A stretch of 64,000 nt of DNA. It comes from Candidatus Roseilinea mizusawaensis. GTDB taxonomy: Bacteria > Chloroflexota > Anaerolineae > J036 > Brachytrichaceae. Shown piece after piece: positions 9,163 to 16,624 of this stretch (positions are counted from its first letter, which is position 1; the number at the start of each line of letters is the position of its first letter). A program made the position numbers and the translations under genes. Under the pieces are notes generated by a model that ran no database searches, was not told where the DNA came from, and saw nothing but the letters and a program-made list of their open reading frames with translations. The DNA lies in NCBI GenBank assembly GCA_016841965.1, contig JAEANN010000001.1:1-64000 (forward strand), written 5' to 3'.

Positions 9163-10368
9163 ATGTCTGGAGATCAGGTTCGTTTCATCGCCAAGCCAGC
9201 GCCCATCTCCTTGCGCCGCCGTCGGTCGCGCATCACGATGGCGCTCGGCATGGCAATTGCGGCAGCAATATGCCTTTCAACGCTCTCGACGTTGCCGACG
9301 CAGGCCCGCGCCGGCATGGAGACCGGCCCCGCGCAGACAGCATCACCGGGCCTGACCGTCACCGTCAACGTGGACAGCACCTTTGCGTACATTGCCCCAG
9401 ACTGGAACGCGGGCCGGGTCGGCCGGTTGATGAAGTGGCAGACAGTCAAGGCGATTGGCCGCAACGCCAACGGCGAGTGGCTGCAAGTCGACTATGGCAA
9501 CAGCCTGGTATGGCTGCACCGCACGATGGTGCGCTTCCCCGGCGATCTAAACGGGGTTGATTCGCCGGTCGTCATGGCCCTGCCGGCCACAGAAAACGCC
9601 AGCCGCCTCTCGCCCAGCCGTATCCGCATGACGCCGATCGGTACGCCGGTGATCTCGGCGCGCGCGCGCCAGATCTACCGGCAGGCAATTGCTGCCGGAC
9701 GCGACGCCACGCTGTTCACTGTTGCCGGCGATTGCAATTCCGAGCCGCCGGTCTACCTGGGCCGCTTTGCCGCCGGCGGATTTGACCTTGCCGCAAACGG
9801 CTTTGCCACATTGCAGCCGGTTGCCAAAAAGTTTGCCCGCTCTTTCAGTTGGACCAGCGTAGCCGTTGACGGCGGCCACAACAGTGCGTCCGTTCTAGAT
9901 CCGCTGTTTGCGAACAGCCGGCAATGCGAGGCGAGCGAAAGCCCGCTGGCGTGCGAACTGCGCCGCTCGAACGCCAGTATCGTGTTCATCGCGCTGGGCA
10001 CCGGCGACACCTTCACCTGGCAAGATTTCGAGGCCAACTATCGCCGCATCATCGACACCGCGCTGGCCTCGAAGGTGCTGCCGGTGCTGGTGACCAAAGC
10101 TGACGATCTGGAATCGACGCAAGGGGGCGCGCCAAGCGGGACCATCAATGCCATCATCCGCCGGCTGGGCACAGAATACCAGTTGCCGGTCATGGACTTT
10201 GGCCTGGCTGCGCGCCGCCTGCCCGACCAGGGTTTGGCCGAAGAAGGCCACGAGGAAGCCGGCCGGGGTGTCGTGTACGCAGCCGCATCGCGCTTCCATC
10301 TGAACGGCTATGGCATGGACATGCGCATGCTGCTAACGCTCACAACCTTGAGCGCCATCGCGCGATAG
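9163..10368 (+). CDS. Secreted SH3/SGNH-like protein, paralogue 1 (GDC variant)
   Basis: This 401-residue exported protein has a hydrophobic signal around residues 27-45, a bacterial SH3-like domain (residues about 65-125: TFAYIAPDWNAGRVGRL then GEWLQVDYGNSLVWL), and an SGNH/GDSL-like domain (about 165-400). Block I reads VAGDCNS, with Cys191 where the family nucleophile Ser is expected. The block III region reads LGTGDT without the usual Asn. Near the C-terminus SRFHLN has Ser three residues before His instead of Asp. Catalysis by the classical mechanism is therefore doubtful. ATG 9163 follows GAGGAG. It is followed by a close paralogue at 10403 and a third convergent paralogue at 11674-13218. 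Confidence 0.8.
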   Translation: MSGDQVRFIAKPAPISLRRRRSRITMALGMAIAAAICLSTLSTLPTQARAGMETGPAQTASPGLTVTVNVDSTFAYIAPDWNAGRVGRLMKWQTVKAIGRNANGEWLQVDYGNSLVWLHRTMVRFPGDLNGVDSPVVMALPATENASRLSPSRIRMTPIGTPVISARARQIYRQAIAAGRDATLFTVAGDCNSEPPVYLGRFAAGGFDLAANGFATLQPVAKKFARSFSWTSVAVDGGHNSASVLDPLFANSRQCEASESPLACELRRSNASIVFIALGTGDTFTWQDFEANYRRIIDTALASKVLPVLVTKADDLESTQGGAPSGTINAIIRRLGTEYQLPVMDFGLAARRLPDQGLAEEGHEEAGRGVVYAAASRFHLNGYGMDMRMLLTLTTLSAIAR

Positions 10369-10402
10369 CGCAGATCACATTATCCTGTTGAGGAGGTTCG
10401 CT

Positions 10403-11470
10403 TTGAACAAACGAATTTCGCTGCCATCGGCACTGCTGTGCGCTGTGCTGGCAGCCACAACACTGCCGGCTGCCACCACCCAGGCGCAAAGTCCCCAGAA
10501 GATCGAATTCGTGGTTACCACACCGGGCGCTTACCTGCGCCAATCGCCAACCTTGCTTTCGGCGAACACCTACCCTGTTTTCAAAAGTGATCGGTTCGAG
10601 GTGGTTGGCCGCACCGCCGACAACTTCTGGCTGCAACTGTCGTACCCGAATGCCATTAGCGGCACGTGGATCATTGCCGGCCTGGGCGAAGTGATCGGCG
10701 ACTTAAAAGAGGTCAAGGCGTTGCCGGCCGGCAAGACGCCGGCGCCGGTGTTAGCCGGACGCGCCGGCCCAATCACCGTGCCCGGCACCCCCATCATCAC
10801 CGCTGCACAGAAGGCGCTGTATCGCAAAGCAGTGGCTGCCGGGCGTGACGCAGGCATGTTTGCCGTGATCGGCGACTGCAATTCACAACCGACTGCCTAT
10901 GTTGGGCGGCTGGCAGCCGGCCTGTTCGGCTACGACCAGTATCGCGCCTACCCGGCCACCGTGTCGCGCTTCACGCGCGCCTTCGCGCGGGTCAGTCTGG
11001 CGGCCTCAGGCGGATTCAACTCCGCCGCCGTGCTCGACCCGACCTGGGCCGATGGCTATTTGTGCAAAGCCGGCGAAACACCCCTCGCCTGCGAACTGCG
11101 CATGTCCAAAGCCAGCATTGCCTTCATCGAGCTGGGCACCGGCGACACACACATCTGGCAAGAGTTCGAGAGCAACTTCCGCACGGTGGTTGAAACAACT
11201 CTGAAGAGCAACGTTTTGCCGGTGCTGATCACCAAAGCCGACTCACTGGAACACGAACAAGCCGACGCCCCACAAGACTACATCAACAAGGTCATTCGCA
11301 AGGTGGGCGCGGAATATGGCGTGCCGGTGATGGATTTCCATCTCGCCACACGCGACCTGCCCAACTTCGGTCTGCTGGACGAAGGCAACGCAGACTTCCA
11401 CCTCAGCCCCGGCGGTTCCTATATCCACCTGCTCCAGACGTTGCAAGTGCTGGATCAGCTCTGGCGCTAA
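10403..11470 (+). CDS. Secreted SH3/SGNH-like protein, paralogue 2 (GDC variant)
   Basis: This 355-residue protein has the same order as its upstream neighbour: signal peptide (residues 1-32, ending TTQAQS), SH3-like domain (GAYLRQSPTLLS, DNFWLQLSYP) and SGNH-like domain. Block I is IGDCNSQ, again with Cys (159) in place of the usual Ser. LGTGDTHIWQ and DFHLSPGG mark later blocks, and Ala stands three residues before the His. The start is TTG 10403, chosen because AGGAGG ends 6 nt before it; an in-frame TTG at 10388 precedes the site. The 34-nt gap to paralogue 1 suggests one operon. The role is probably at the cell surface, perhaps binding rather than cleaving glycan esters. Confidence 0.8.
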   Translation: MNKRISLPSALLCAVLAATTLPAATTQAQSPQKIEFVVTTPGAYLRQSPTLLSANTYPVFKSDRFEVVGRTADNFWLQLSYPNAISGTWIIAGLGEVIGDLKEVKALPAGKTPAPVLAGRAGPITVPGTPIITAAQKALYRKAVAAGRDAGMFAVIGDCNSQPTAYVGRLAAGLFGYDQYRAYPATVSRFTRAFARVSLAASGGFNSAAVLDPTWADGYLCKAGETPLACELRMSKASIAFIELGTGDTHIWQEFESNFRTVVETTLKSNVLPVLITKADSLEHEQADAPQDYINKVIRKVGAEYGVPVMDFHLATRDLPNFGLLDEGNADFHLSPGGSYIHLLQTLQVLDQLWR

Positions 11471-11673: not shown

Positions 11674-13218
11674 TCACTGCCCCATCACCTGCCGGCGGAT
11701 CACATCCAGCGCCCGCAGCGCCGTCAGGTTATACATGTTATAGCCATAGGAGAGGTAGCCGCCGGTGAAGTTAGCGGACTGTCCGTCGGGCGGCTTGTTG
11801 ATATGAAAGCCATCGGCCTCGAAGCCGCGGTTGGGCAGCGCCGCAAACGCCTGACGCAGGTCCAGCAGCGGCACGCTGTACTCGCCGCTGAGCCGGCGGA
11901 TGATGTCGTTGATGTAGCCATACGGCGCCTGGCTATCGGTTGATTCGAGATCATCGCCTTTGGTCATGCACACAGGGATGACGCCCTGGTTGATGAGGTA
12001 CTCGATGATCTGGCGATAGCGCGACTCGAACCCCTGCCAAGTGTGCTGATCGCCCGTGCCGAGCAAGATGAATGCGATGCTGGGCCGGTTGACGCGCACC
12101 TCGCAGACCAGCGGCGACTCACCTGGCCCACAACCGGCCGGCGCATTGGCCGGGTCGAGCGCCTTGGTGGTGTTGAATCCCCCGCGCGCAGCGATGCGCT
12201 CGCGCGAAAACGACCCCCGGAAAAAGTCGATCGTCTGCTGCAAGTAACCATATCCCCCCAGGGTATAGCCGCCCCAGTCGAACGGTGCAAAGAAAGCCAT
12301 GTTGGCCGTGTTGCTATCGCCGATCAACGAAAACACATTTGCCCTGTTTCCCAGCGCTTGCCCGGCCTGATAAATCTCAAACGCGCGGCCCGTCAGATTG
12401 GACAGATTGGGATCATCGGCGACGACGACAGCTAACTGCGCAGCCGGCGCGCTTGCAGCATCCACCATCCCGCCGGCTGCCGGGATCTGCGACATCGCCC
12501 CGGCCAGATCAACGTACTGGCTCATCACCCACCCTTCAGTTCCCTGCGGCGTGACCACCTTCAGCCAGAAGTCATCGGACGTGCGAGCCAGCACCTGCAA
12601 CTGGGTCTGGGGCGCCAGCTTGGTAATGACCTCTGCCTCGGTGCTGGGGCTGCGCCGCAAGCGCAGGCCACCGGCGTCGATGCGCACCTGAGCTGAGGGG
12701 GCTGTTTGGGCAGACGAAACCGCTGGCTCACGAATGGGCGCGGGCGGCAACACCACGCCCGGGGCCGGAATAGTGAGCACTGCGCCGAGCGACAACAAAT
12801 CCGGATTGATCTGCGGATTGGCGGCAATCAGCACATCGAGGCTGAGACCAAAACGCACGGCGATATCCCACAGGGTGTCGCCCTCTACCACAACGTATGT
12901 CGTAAGCGCCGGTGTCGCCGTTGGGAGTTCGACAAACGAGGTGGCCGAGGGCGCAGGTGTGGGGGAATCTGTAGCCGGCGGCGCCGGGGTGATATGCAAC
13001 GTGACCTGGGGAGTGAGGCTGAATGCTGCCGGCCGGCCGGGCGTGCGCGGCACAGAAACCGCCATAACCGCCACAATACCGATCAAGACCGCTGCCCCAG
13101 CTACACCACCCACCAAAACACGGGTTGGTCTACGTAATCGGTTCCCCAACACATCTTTTTGTGGGCTGCCTGTGCGCAAAGTCGGGCGGTTAGAATTGCG
13201 TTGATTCGGTGGACGCAT
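11674..13218 (-). CDS. Membrane-anchored LysM/SH3/SGNH protein, paralogue 3
   Basis: This 514-residue protein has a basic N-terminus, one transmembrane helix (about residues 33-52) and a Pro/Thr-rich spacer. A LysM domain follows (YVVVEGDTLWDIAVRFGLSL), then an SH3-like domain (GGLRLRRSPSTEAEV, WVMSQYVD) and an SGNH domain. Unlike its two paralogues it keeps the nucleophile Ser (LIGDSNT) and an Asp-x-x-His motif (DGFHIN), so it may be an active esterase or transferase anchored to peptidoglycan through LysM. ATG 13218 is preferred; an upstream extension to 13356 would overlap the divergent lipoprotein gene and has no support. A -10-like TACAAT lies 9 nt upstream. Confidence 0.83.
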   Translation of the reverse strand: MRPPNQRNSNRPTLRTGSPQKDVLGNRLRRPTRVLVGGVAGAAVLIGIVAVMAVSVPRTPGRPAAFSLTPQVTLHITPAPPATDSPTPAPSATSFVELPTATPALTTYVVVEGDTLWDIAVRFGLSLDVLIAANPQINPDLLSLGAVLTIPAPGVVLPPAPIREPAVSSAQTAPSAQVRIDAGGLRLRRSPSTEAEVITKLAPQTQLQVLARTSDDFWLKVVTPQGTEGWVMSQYVDLAGAMSQIPAAGGMVDAASAPAAQLAVVVADDPNLSNLTGRAFEIYQAGQALGNRANVFSLIGDSNTANMAFFAPFDWGGYTLGGYGYLQQTIDFFRGSFSRERIAARGGFNTTKALDPANAPAGCGPGESPLVCEVRVNRPSIAFILLGTGDQHTWQGFESRYRQIIEYLINQGVIPVCMTKGDDLESTDSQAPYGYINDIIRRLSGEYSVPLLDLRQAFAALPNRGFEADGFHINKPPDGQSANFTGGYLSYGYNMYNLTALRALDVIRRQVMGQ

Positions 13219-13227
13219 GCAGGCCTG

Positions 13228-13233
13228 ATTGTA
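13228..13233 (-). promoter_or_regulatory. -10-like box just before the LysM/SGNH gene
   Basis: On the minus strand TACAAT occupies 13233-13228 and ends 9 nt before ATG 13218. Transcription would start within a few bases of the start codon, giving a leaderless or near-leaderless mRNA. No good -35 is visible, and no ribosome-binding site is present. Confidence 0.35.
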
Positions 13234-13274
13234 TCTAAGCGACAACGCCGCCGAAAAAAACACAAGGAGCAAGC

Positions 13275-13733
13275 ATGACACGAACAACACGGCAGTGGGC
13301 AGCCAGCCTGATGCTGATAGGAATAGTCGGTCTGACCGGCTGCCAGTCTGCGCCACAAGCTGCCTCGGCTGTTGCCACGCCCGCGCCCGAACAAAACCGG
13401 CCGGCTGCCGGCGTGGTGGGCGATCCTGCCCGCATCATCGAAGACTACCTGAAAGCGCGCATCGAAGCCAACATCGACGCCATGATTAACCTGTCCTGCG
13501 CCGACTGGGAGGGCGAAGCGCGCAAAGAGTCTAATTCGCTGCGCGGCGTGAAAGCCCGGCTGGAAGGCGTGAGCTGCACAGCAAAGAGCGCCGATGCCGC
13601 AACCATGCTGGTGGCGTGCGAGGGCAACATCGTCGCCAACTACAACGGCGAAGATCGCCCGCTGCCGCTGAACAAGCGCAAATTCAAGCTAATCGCCGAC
13701 GGCGGCCAGTGGCGCATGTGCGGGTATGAGTGA
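13275..13733 (+). CDS. Small exported lipoprotein of unknown function
   Basis: This 152-residue protein has a clear lipoprotein signal: a charged start, a hydrophobic core, and lipobox LTGC with Cys23. A Pro/Ala-rich linker precedes a domain of about 100 residues (DYLKARIEANIDAMINLSC ... KLIADGGQWRMCGYE). It contains four further cysteines that could pair after export. The fold resembles small nuclear-transport-factor-2-like lipoprotein domains, but the match is weak. ATG 13275 follows AAGGAG. It is divergent from the LysM/SGNH gene and lies 67 nt upstream of the microprotein and MBOAT genes, so it may belong to the same surface system. Confidence 0.75.
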   Translation: MTRTTRQWAASLMLIGIVGLTGCQSAPQAASAVATPAPEQNRPAAGVVGDPARIIEDYLKARIEANIDAMINLSCADWEGEARKESNSLRGVKARLEGVSCTAKSADAATMLVACEGNIVANYNGEDRPLPLNKRKFKLIADGGQWRMCGYE

Positions 13734-13768: not shown

Positions 13769-13803
13769 GACGACTGGCTACCGACGACTGAAGACTGCCA
13801 ATG
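13769..13803. repeat. Heptamer array before the microprotein gene
   Basis: Five 7-bp units in register (GACGACT, GGCTACC, GACGACT, GAAGACT, GCCAATG) run into the start codon of the microprotein; the last unit contains its ATG. Conservation is partial, but the period is kept. Confidence 0.55.
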
Positions 13804-13920
13804 GCACGACGACTCTTCAACCGCGAAAACCTGATCGCGCTGGCAGTGTGCCTGATGCTGATCGCCCTTGTGGTGCTGACTGCCGACAGCGCGCCGCAGT
13901 GGATCTATCAGGGTTTCTGA
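13801..13920 (+). CDS. DltX-like single-helix microprotein, partner of MBOAT
   Basis: This 39-residue frame starts at ATG 13801 and stops at TGA 13918-13920, 16 nt before the MBOAT gene. It has a short basic N-terminus (MARRLF), one transmembrane helix (about residues 10-28) and a C-terminus ending APQWIYQGF. The last six residues, W-I-Y-Q-G-F, match the pattern aromatic-x-Tyr-x-x-Phe found at the very end of DltX. There, as I recall from work on teichoic-acid D-alanylation, the Tyr carries the acyl group across the membrane with the MBOAT DltB. Size, topology, terminal motif and location upstream of an MBOAT gene all agree. No strong ribosome-binding site is present. The function is inferred, not shown. 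Confidence 0.72.
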   Translation: MARRLFNRENLIALAVCLMLIALVVLTADSAPQWIYQGF

Positions 13921-13936
13921 GCCGGCCTGGCGCCGA

Positions 13937-15496
13937 GTGATCACACCCGCGATGAGCCTGACTCAGATTGTGATCTTTGTCGCCGGCGCGCTACTGTTTG
14001 GCACACTGGCTGCACTGGCTGCGCGCGACTCAACAGGCCGGTTGAACGCGCTGGCCCGCCAGATGCGCCCCTGGCTGATGCTGTCGGCCAGCGTGGTGGC
14101 CCTATACTGGCTGCAATCCTCGACCCCCATTCGCCACCTGGACTTCTGGCTGCCAACGGCAACCCTGGGCCTGACGGGGCTGATGTGGGCAGCAACGCGC
14201 ACACCCCGCCCGGCCACAGCGAGCCGGCATTCCGATCAGGCCGCCGTTGCGGCTGCATTCGACCGGCGCACAACACTGCTAACCGCGCTGGTCATAGTCG
14301 GCATCATCGCGCTGATCGCCGCCACGCGCTATGTCGATGCGCTGTGCTGCCTGACCCCCTCGCGCCCGCCCGACATTGGCGCGGTGGCTATAGCGTTGCT
14401 GATATGCGCCGGCCTGTGTGTCACCGTGGGCCGGCTTGCGGGGCAGAGCACTACCGGTGGGGCATGGCTCGATGCCGCGCTCGTCATCGCGTTGCTGGGG
14501 CTGTTCGTGGCGCTTAAGACCGAACCGTTGACCACCGGTGTAAGCGCCATCCTGCGCACGCTCACCGGCCAGTCGGTCAGCCAGGCGGCGGCGCTCGATG
14601 TGCGCTGGCTGGGCTTCTCGTACATCGCCTTTCGGTTGATTCACGTCTTGCGCGACCATGCCAATGGCCGGCTGCCGGCGCTCTCGCTGCGCGAGTTTGT
14701 CACCTACGTGGCGTTTTTTCCAACGCTTGCTGCCGGGCCAATCGATCGGGCCGAACGGTTTGTTAAAGACCTGCGCGGCTGGGATGCCGGCGCAAGCGCA
14801 GCCTCTGCGCGCGTCGAGGATGTGGCTGAGGGACTGCGCCGTATCCTGATCGGCATGTTCAAGAAATTCGCCGTTGCCGACACGCTGGCGTTAATTGCGC
14901 TCAACCCCGTTAACGCCGGGCAGGTTCAGGCCATGCCCTGGGCATGGGTGTTGTTGTACGCCTATGCCTTTCGGCTGTATTTTGACTTCAGCGGCTACAC
15001 CGACATTGCGATCGGTGTGGGCCGGCTGTTTGGCGCGCGGCTGCCGGAAAACTTCGATCGGCCCTACCTGCGTCCGAACCTGACCCTGTTCTGGAATAGC
15101 TGGCACATGACACTGGCCAACTGGTTCAGAGCGTACTGGTTCAACCCATTGACACGCCGGCTAAGGACGGCCCGCCGCGCATCACTCAACCCGGCGGCGA
15201 TCATCTTCATCGGCCAGAGCAGCACCATGCTGTTGATCGGCTTGTGGCACGGCGTAACGTGGAACTTTGCCTTGTGGGGAGCGTGGCATGCGCTGGGTCT
15301 GTTTGTCCACAACCGCTGGACGGCGTTCGTGCGCAGCCGGGGATGGGGCGCGCCCGCCTCGAACTGGCGCGGCCGGGCGCTCAATGCGCTCAACATCGTC
15401 CTGACGTTCCACTTCGTGGCGCTGGGCTGGGTATGGTTCGTGCTGCCTGACGTGGGGCAGGCATTGACACTGTTTGCCCGATTGTTCGGCGGATGA
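13937..15496 (+). CDS. MBOAT-family O-acyltransferase (AlgI/DltB-like)
   Basis: This 519-residue polytopic membrane protein transfers acyl groups to an extracellular acceptor. Family marks are FFPTLAAGPIDRAERF, AFRLYFDFSGYTDIAIG, the FWNSWHMTLANWFRAYWF segment and the essential His in GLWHG (His438), followed by WNFALWGAWHALG. Ten or more hydrophobic helices are visible. The start is GTG 13937, or ATG 13952 five codons later; neither has a strong ribosome-binding site. It lies between the DltX-like microprotein and an SGNH-like protein, the arrangement known for alginate acetylation and D-alanylation loci. No dltA/dltC carrier genes are near, so the donor is probably acetyl-CoA or another acyl-CoA. 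Confidence 0.9.
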   Translation: MITPAMSLTQIVIFVAGALLFGTLAALAARDSTGRLNALARQMRPWLMLSASVVALYWLQSSTPIRHLDFWLPTATLGLTGLMWAATRTPRPATASRHSDQAAVAAAFDRRTTLLTALVIVGIIALIAATRYVDALCCLTPSRPPDIGAVAIALLICAGLCVTVGRLAGQSTTGGAWLDAALVIALLGLFVALKTEPLTTGVSAILRTLTGQSVSQAAALDVRWLGFSYIAFRLIHVLRDHANGRLPALSLREFVTYVAFFPTLAAGPIDRAERFVKDLRGWDAGASAASARVEDVAEGLRRILIGMFKKFAVADTLALIALNPVNAGQVQAMPWAWVLLYAYAFRLYFDFSGYTDIAIGVGRLFGARLPENFDRPYLRPNLTLFWNSWHMTLANWFRAYWFNPLTRRLRTARRASLNPAAIIFIGQSSTMLLIGLWHGVTWNFALWGAWHALGLFVHNRWTAFVRSRGWGAPASNWRGRALNALNIVLTFHFVALGWVWFVLPDVGQALTLFARLFGG

Positions 15497-15517: not shown

Positions 15518-16624
15518 ATGAGCAGTGTTTCAACCCGGCGCATTGTGATCAAAGCATTGCTGTTGTTCGTTGCCGTCAACGCCGTGTTCGCGTTGACCGA
15601 TCCGCTGCCAACAATTGGCTCGCTGTCGGGCTATAACGTCGTGTTTCCCGGCCGGCCGCGCCTGCCCTACAGCGATTTTCCCGATCGCGCCTACAACCTC
15701 AGCCTGTATACCTTGAACGCTCTGTTTGCTTCGCACGAGATCGCCGCAGGCCCCAAACCCGCCGGCGAGTATCGTGTGTTGCTGATTGGCGATTCATCAG
15801 TGTGGGGCTTTTTGCTGCGCCCACAAGACACCCTGGCCGCGCGCATCAACGCCATGCGGCCCACGCTTGCCGATGGGCGCATCGTGCGCGCCTACAACCT
15901 CGGCTACCCCATCATGTCCGTGACCAAAGACCTGCTGTTGTTGCAGCAGGCTATGCGCTATCAACCCGACCTGATCGTGTGGCTGGTGACGCTCGAATCG
16001 CTGCCGGCCGGCCGACAACTGCTGCACCCGATTGTGCAAAACAACGCGGCTGCCGTGCGCGCGTTGATTGCAGACTACGGGCTGCCGCTTGACCCAGCAG
16101 ATGCGCGACTGCTGACGCCCTCTTTGATGGAGCGCACACTGATCGGGCAGCGGCGCAACCTGGCCGATGTGATCCGCTTGCAGATGTATGGCGTGCTGTG
16201 GGCGGCCACCGGCATCGATCAGGATTACCCAGACTATGAGCCGGCGGCAATCGATCTGGAGGCCGACGATTCATTTCACGATCTCAAACCGCCTGCGCTG
16301 CGCGCCGAAGACCTGGCACTGGATGTGCTGCGCGCCGGCCATCAACTGGCCGGCAACATCCCCATCCTGATCGTGAACGAACCAATCCTCATCAGCAACG
16401 GGCAAAACAGCGACATTCGCTACAACTTCTTCTACCCGCGCTGGGCCTATGACCAATATCGCATCATCATGGCCGGCGCGGCGCAGCGCCAGGGCTGGCG
16501 TTATCTCGACTTGTGGGACCTGGTTCCGCTGACCGAGTTCACCAACAGCGCCGTGCATCTGACGCCGCGCGGATCGGCGCTGCTGGCAGAGCGCATCGCA
16601 CAGCACATCGCAGCCGGCGACTGA
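15518..16624 (+). CDS. Membrane-anchored SGNH-like protein (AlgX/DltD-like role)
   Basis: This 368-residue protein has one N-terminal transmembrane segment (about residues 8-27) and an extracellular SGNH-type domain. Block I is IGDSSVWG with Asp92 and Ser93. The C-terminal block reads SAVHLTPRG, keeping the catalytic His but with Ser instead of Asp three residues before it. SGNH partners in MBOAT systems complete acyl transfer to a polysaccharide outside the cell. ATG 15518 is preceded by AACGAGGAAAG. Only 21 nt separate it from the MBOAT gene, so they are probably co-transcribed. The glycan target cannot be read from the sequence. Confidence 0.78.
   Translation: MSSVSTRRIVIKALLLFVAVNAVFALTDPLPTIGSLSGYNVVFPGRPRLPYSDFPDRAYNLSLYTLNALFASHEIAAGPKPAGEYRVLLIGDSSVWGFLLRPQDTLAARINAMRPTLADGRIVRAYNLGYPIMSVTKDLLLLQQAMRYQPDLIVWLVTLESLPAGRQLLHPIVQNNAAAVRALIADYGLPLDPADARLLTPSLMERTLIGQRRNLADVIRLQMYGVLWAATGIDQDYPDYEPAAIDLEADDSFHDLKPPALRAEDLALDVLRAGHQLAGNIPILIVNEPILISNGQNSDIRYNFFYPRWAYDQYRIIMAGAAQRQGWRYLDLWDLVPLTEFTNSAVHLTPRGSALLAERIAQHIAAGD

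Follow-up and report, generated by a model that had tools for sequence, protein, structure and literature searches.

Does the 39-residue frame that lies just ahead of an MBOAT acyltransferase gene in Candidatus Roseilinea mizusawaensis encode a DltX-like acyl shuttle, and if so, which kind of system does it serve? In both DltX and PatA the acyl group is carried, or is proposed to be carried, on the invariant tyrosine of a hexapeptide, from which it passes to the serine of an SGNH enzyme (PMC12148441). The initial annotation of this locus had proposed that the same logic operates here, without DltA and DltC, on a glycan of the envelope. To address this, we analysed the whole stretch of 64,000 nucleotides (the window), which belongs to contig C31 of a 3.86-Mb genome that is 99% complete and most closely related to Anaerolineae of the Chloroflexota. 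The features discussed below are these:

9163–10368 (+ strand), 10388–11470 (+ strand) and 11674–13356 (− strand): three secreted proteins of GDSL/SGNH-like type, one of them bearing LysM and SH3 domains.
13275–13733, + strand: putative lipoprotein of 152 amino acids with a lipobox-like Cys23, adjoining the cassette on its upstream side in 49 loci.
13801–13920, + strand: DltX-like microprotein of 39 amino acids, MARRLFNRENLIALAVCLMLIALVVLTADSAPQWIYQGF, with a basic N-terminus, one predicted membrane helix and the C-terminus WIYQGF.
13900–13917, + strand: the WIYQGF codons, an acyl-shuttle-like hexapeptide (Tyr36 codon, 13906–13908).
13937–15496, + strand: DltB-like MBOAT acyltransferase (PF03062, E 4e-19), starting at GTG 13937 or, likelier, ATG 13952; His390 at 15104–15106 and His438 (GLWHG) at 15248–15250.
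15518–16624, + strand: SGNH acyltransferase-like protein with one N-terminal membrane helix, a probable partner in the role of DltD; Ser93 (15794–15796) and His347 (16556–16558) are invariant in an alignment of 38.

The frame at 13801–13920 is a real, translated gene, as first proposed. Only one of the 961 start-to-stop frames of at least 20 amino acids in the window has a C-terminus of the form [FWY]xYxx[FWY], and it is this one. Searching upstream of MBOAT genes in Chloroflexota, as the initial annotation had suggested, we examined the best 80 of 179 MBOAT relatives and found the microprotein at 75 of these loci, which together with the window's own copy gives 76 homologues, all of them ending in WIYQGF or a sequence one step away from it. 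In 75 of the 76 (window included) the MBOAT relative is the next gene downstream; in L031, the exception, the microprotein is farther upstream by one gene and precedes the SGNH gene. Among the remaining five of the 80 loci, two are N-masked at the microprotein site and one is ended by a contig edge; in the genomes of L041 and L070 the microprotein gene is present but at another place, apart from the MBOAT. Over 76 codon rows, pN/pS is 0.35 overall (34 codons) and 0.013 in the last six codons. Purifying selection is clear, because the tryptophan, the tyrosine and the final phenylalanine are fixed in every row while synonymous sites vary; both the frame and its terminal hexapeptide are thus conserved, with the low substitution ratio of a translated gene. 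The gene had also been called easily missed, which holds in that it is short and often unannotated, but a copy on a Leptolinea plasmid is annotated, as hypothetical protein BCY19582.1. On that 212-kb plasmid (L100 4748–6347, AP024711.1) the microprotein and the MBOAT are both annotated solely as hypothetical proteins.

In a model of the microprotein fused to the MBOAT with the stop read through (L007, whose microprotein is 95% identical to that of the window), residues 8–27 form the membrane helix. An orientation with the N-terminus inside and the C-terminus outside would fit the basic N-terminus and the acidic segment before the motif, by the positive-inside rule. The model reached a pLDDT of ~90 over the MBOAT and below 50 at the motif. 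At ~30 loci the in-frame ATG of the MBOAT immediately follows the microprotein stop (WIYQGF-stop-M), an abutment that suggests translational coupling. Readthrough of the stop at such junctions (among L007–L086) would yield a microprotein–MBOAT fusion.

The second gene was correctly recognized as an MBOAT with its essential histidine (GLWHG, His438); the start first assigned to it, 16 nt downstream of the microprotein, is less likely than ATG 13952, 31 nt after the microprotein stop, because relatives begin M-x-L. Alignment of 35 rows showed the active-site histidines of the WHM and WHG motifs to be invariant. Several comparisons place this protein beside DltB: its only sequence matches in the PDB are DltB structures, a fold search also ranks DltB first, and its score against the DltB equivalog TIGR04091 is 219 bits, where the cut-off is 375 and the true DltB of L105 reaches 446. 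We built a tree of the window family, PatA/AlgI-type proteins and DltB of both Bacillota and Chloroflexota; three clean groups emerged, and, in this tree whose root is not known, the window family and DltB share one side of a branch with support of 100/100. Each of the eight PatA/AlgI-type rows carries F[IL]YxxF at its C-terminus, where MBOATs of the window family have LFGG or something close to it. The window family is thus supplied with the motif in trans, as in Dlt, and the C-termini and the tree together rule out a PatA-like MBOAT with a fused motif. The genome has a second, very divergent MBOAT (L002 1327–2592, G000:C28), which lies between a FAD-dependent oxidoreductase and a UbiA-like prenyltransferase and for which we found neither a C-terminal motif nor a microprotein.

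The SGNH-like gene said to follow the MBOAT is present at 15518–16624, beyond position 15496 where the annotated feature ended, and its predicted structure (pLDDT 91.3) has an SGNH fold. Of the structures matched, those of DltD align over the greatest number of residues (267–283 of 368, Z 13.7–14.4), but simpler SGNH esterases equal them in Z, and the protein had no match to TIGR04092 (DltD) or to any other NCBIfam model. In most rows the residue three positions before the catalytic histidine is serine or threonine, where SGNH enzymes usually have aspartate. Upstream of the cassette, the 152-residue lipoprotein matched no Pfam family; cysteines C23, C75, C101, C115 and C149 are invariant in its alignment. 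Members of the GDSL/SGNH-like secreted family are found close to the cassette in 52 loci, and two of the three members in the window have GDC, not GDS, at the usual nucleophile site. The linked LysM, SH3 and GDSL proteins make an acceptor in the cell wall plausible.

How would such an MBOAT be supplied with acyl groups? When the neighbouring genes were clustered, two families recurred a few kb downstream, a carrier protein (25 loci) and an AMP ligase (35 loci), with many loci ending sooner. In G241 and G260, which belong to the same family as the window genome, microprotein, MBOAT, SGNH protein, carrier and ligase form one uninterrupted run. Profiles made from the linked genes of relatives identified a ligase at C34:7477–9126 (915 bits) and a carrier at C2:10760–11002 (137 bits) in the window genome, both unlinked from the cassette on C31. 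The proposal that the relay works without DltA and DltC therefore stands only in part: true DltA and DltC were not found, but a dedicated carrier and ligase are encoded, and a relay free of either is ruled out by these two genes and by the linked copies in many relatives. The carrier has a PP-binding domain and an invariant DSF serine motif. The best PDB matches of the ligase are fatty acyl-AMP ligases (FAALs; 3kxw, 340 bits; 3pbk, 312), colinear over the full length, as compared with ~155 bits for 4-coumarate-CoA ligase, and in NCBIfam the top-scoring families are of FAAL type, with scores under their cut-offs. By these matches the enzyme appears to belong with the FAALs and not with DltA or with adenylation domains of the amino-acid type.

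To ask whether the five parts travel together, we sampled 150 genomes of the class, 27 of which carry the microprotein at E <1e-9. The SGNH protein was present in 24 of these 27 and in 2 of the 123 others (Fisher p 2e-22), the ligase in 22 and 3 (p 1e-18), and the carrier in 14 and 0 (p 1e-12), all p-values ignoring shared descent. Under the strict threshold the ligase was not detected in five of the microprotein genomes, and only half of these genomes have a carrier that passes its own threshold. The genomes with the microprotein span seven families, and several (e.g. G037) keep all parts scattered over contigs.

Is this, then, a divergent dlt operon? In the 99% complete genome the best score against DltA (TIGR01734, cut-off 560 bits) is 165 bits, in an unrelated cluster, and the window-system carrier scores about 23–27 bits against DltC (TIGR01688, cut-off 52 bits). 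PF12459 (DltX, cut-off 25 bits) matched nothing in the window genome or among 36 homologues at E values up to 10; canonical DltX of Chloroflexota scores 26–30 bits against it. Every Dlt family cut-off that we applied was missed, and a true dlt operon is ruled out. The gene that scores 165 bits against DltA belongs to a pair of adenylation enzyme and carrier on C16 (L003/L091, G000:C16:103089–104933), beside asparagine-synthetase-like and NAD-epimerase-like genes. We set it aside as a donor, the profile of linked ligases giving 42 bits there as against 915 on C34; the pair is probably part of another biosynthetic cluster.

A true dlt operon does occur in the same class. In G028 it spans 4095–8421 of L105 (G028:C50) in the order DltC, DltD, DltX, DltA, DltB, passes all five Dlt cut-offs, and encodes a DltX ending in FIYQGF; the same contig carries a window-type system at ~53–57 kb, with its SGNH gene elsewhere. 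The coexistence of the two in one genome makes it unlikely that they serve the same function. Further DltX matches occur in other Chloroflexota genomes (L093–L097). The F-x-Y-x-x-F terminus is found in canonical DltX of both Chloroflexota and Limosilactobacillus, and in a profile comparison of the microprotein with DltX only the last 12 columns align (58% identical, probability 92). Upstream of these columns the helices differ, that of DltX reading YYLAIIxxLxxLYG. Given the failure of PF12459, the differing helix and the short match, we make no claim of common descent; the microprotein would do the same job as DltX.

From these data we think it probable that the locus encodes a Dlt-type tyrosine relay with a separate microprotein, fed by its own carrier and FAAL-like ligase. 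The relay would join the observed five-part gene set, with its conservation, co-occurrence and relationships, by chemical steps each of which is modelled on Dlt and PatAB. The ligase (C34) would adenylate a carboxylic acid and load it onto the phosphopantetheine of the carrier (C2), which would dock on the MBOAT from the cytoplasm, in the manner of DltC on DltB; the MBOAT, through His438 and probably His390, would pass the acyl group to Tyr36 of WIYQGF outside the membrane; the acyl-tyrosyl peptide would hand it to Ser93 of the SGNH enzyme; and this enzyme would esterify an acceptor in the envelope, which is probably a lipid or a cell-wall glycan. Judging by the type of ligase, the group moved is probably a fatty or other carboxylic acid and not D-alanine. 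One unlinked microprotein (L129 1300–1614, in the L041 genome) follows a gene with a His-rich, fatty-acid-hydroxylase-like end, a possible hint of a fatty acyl group.

The idea of a DltX-like relay, put forward in the initial annotation, thus draws support from the conserved hexapeptide, from an MBOAT that falls beside DltB and has no FIYxxF of its own, and from a DltD-like SGNH partner; it is favoured further because the microprotein is kept even where it is unlinked from the MBOAT. It is weakened because the motif falls below a pLDDT of 50 in the fusion model, because the residue three before the SGNH histidine is mostly serine or threonine, because at the thresholds used the ligase is missing from five microprotein genomes and the carrier from half, and because the co-occurrence p-values ignore shared descent and the window genome's own ligase and carrier lie on other contigs. 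Some of these points bear on a reading in which the same tyrosine relay draws on an acyl-CoA donor, such as acetyl-CoA, while the FAAL-like ligase and the carrier serve a different pathway and simply accompany the cassette. PatA does use acetyl-CoA (PMC12148441), and the unlinked ligase and carrier and the five genomes with no ligase at threshold fit this; we nevertheless regard it as unlikely, since the MBOAT lies beside the carrier-fed DltB and not with PatA/AlgI, and the contiguous five-gene runs and strong co-occurrence tie carrier and ligase to the cassette. Alternatively, the microprotein could serve the MBOAT as a subunit with a structural or regulatory function, its tyrosine never acylated and its hexapeptide merely docking in the MBOAT funnel. 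A regulatory role for DltX was considered in an earlier structural paper (PMC11035591), and the low pLDDT of the motif could be read in this way, but the tyrosine is invariant in 76 rows and acetylation of its equivalent in PatA has been demonstrated (PMC12148441), which leaves this reading distinctly improbable.

A divergent form of D-alanylation, with D-alanine or another amino acid as the acyl group, would explain why the list of parts is that of dltXABCD and why the MBOAT is nearest to DltB. Against it stand the linked ligase, which is FAAL-like and neither of the DltA type nor an amino-acid adenylation domain, the carrier scores below the DltC cut-offs, and the true dlt operon that accompanies the system in G028; we consider it very unlikely. 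That the short frame arose by chance and is not translated, as its length and frequent lack of annotation might suggest, is refuted by purifying selection, by the 76 homologues and by conservation where the gene is unlinked, and we give this reading next to no weight.

We lean towards the broader conclusion that Chloroflexota possess a second, non-D-alanine system of the DltX type, in which a FAAL-like ligase and a dedicated carrier would feed a fatty or other carboxylic acyl group to a DltB-like MBOAT and, through a separate tyrosine microprotein, to an envelope acceptor. If this is true, tyrosine microproteins act in trans beyond D-alanylation too, and the system would add, from nature, an independent example of a tyrosine shuttle for acyl groups in trans and of an MBOAT that is fed by a carrier but does not serve D-alanylation. 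It would be a sign that the cell envelope of this phylum, about which little is known, bears a modification not yet described. According to a 2025 paper, neither a DltX-like microprotein nor a carrier protein occurs in MBOAT–SGNH pathways outside Dlt (PMC12148441); contrary to this, the window family has both, with a different ligase. Text searches of the literature, with most subscription papers outside their scope, returned no description of the five-part system and no pairing of a FAAL with an MBOAT, and the one paper found to contain both D-alanylation and Chloroflexi terms names each a single time.

How does the window-type system compare with those already known? With Dlt it shares the same five kinds of part: a DltB-like MBOAT with both histidines, a carrier and an AMP ligase, a separate one-helix microprotein ending in aromatic-x-Tyr-x-x-Phe, and an SGNH partner with an N-terminal membrane helix. 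It differs from Dlt in that the first motif position is W in the window microprotein and F in DltX, the window MBOAT is ~100 residues longer at its N-terminus, the carrier has DSF where DltC of L105 has DSL, and the ligase is FAAL-like rather than DltA. With PatA/PatB, AlgI/AlgX-J and WssH/I it has in common the pairing of MBOAT and SGNH protein and the C-terminal aromatic-x-Tyr-x-x-Phe motif; in those systems, however, the MBOAT itself carries this motif at its C-terminus on additional helices and takes its acyl group from acetyl-CoA (PMC12148441), whereas in the window system the motif resides on a separate protein, a carrier is linked, and the MBOAT forms a separate clade of the tree. Finally, the window-type ligase resembles the FAALs that act with acyl carrier proteins in lipid and polyketide pathways, being colinear with them over its full length and adjoining a carrier, but this pair is tied to an MBOAT–SGNH cassette for envelope acylation rather than to a synthase of polyketides or peptides.
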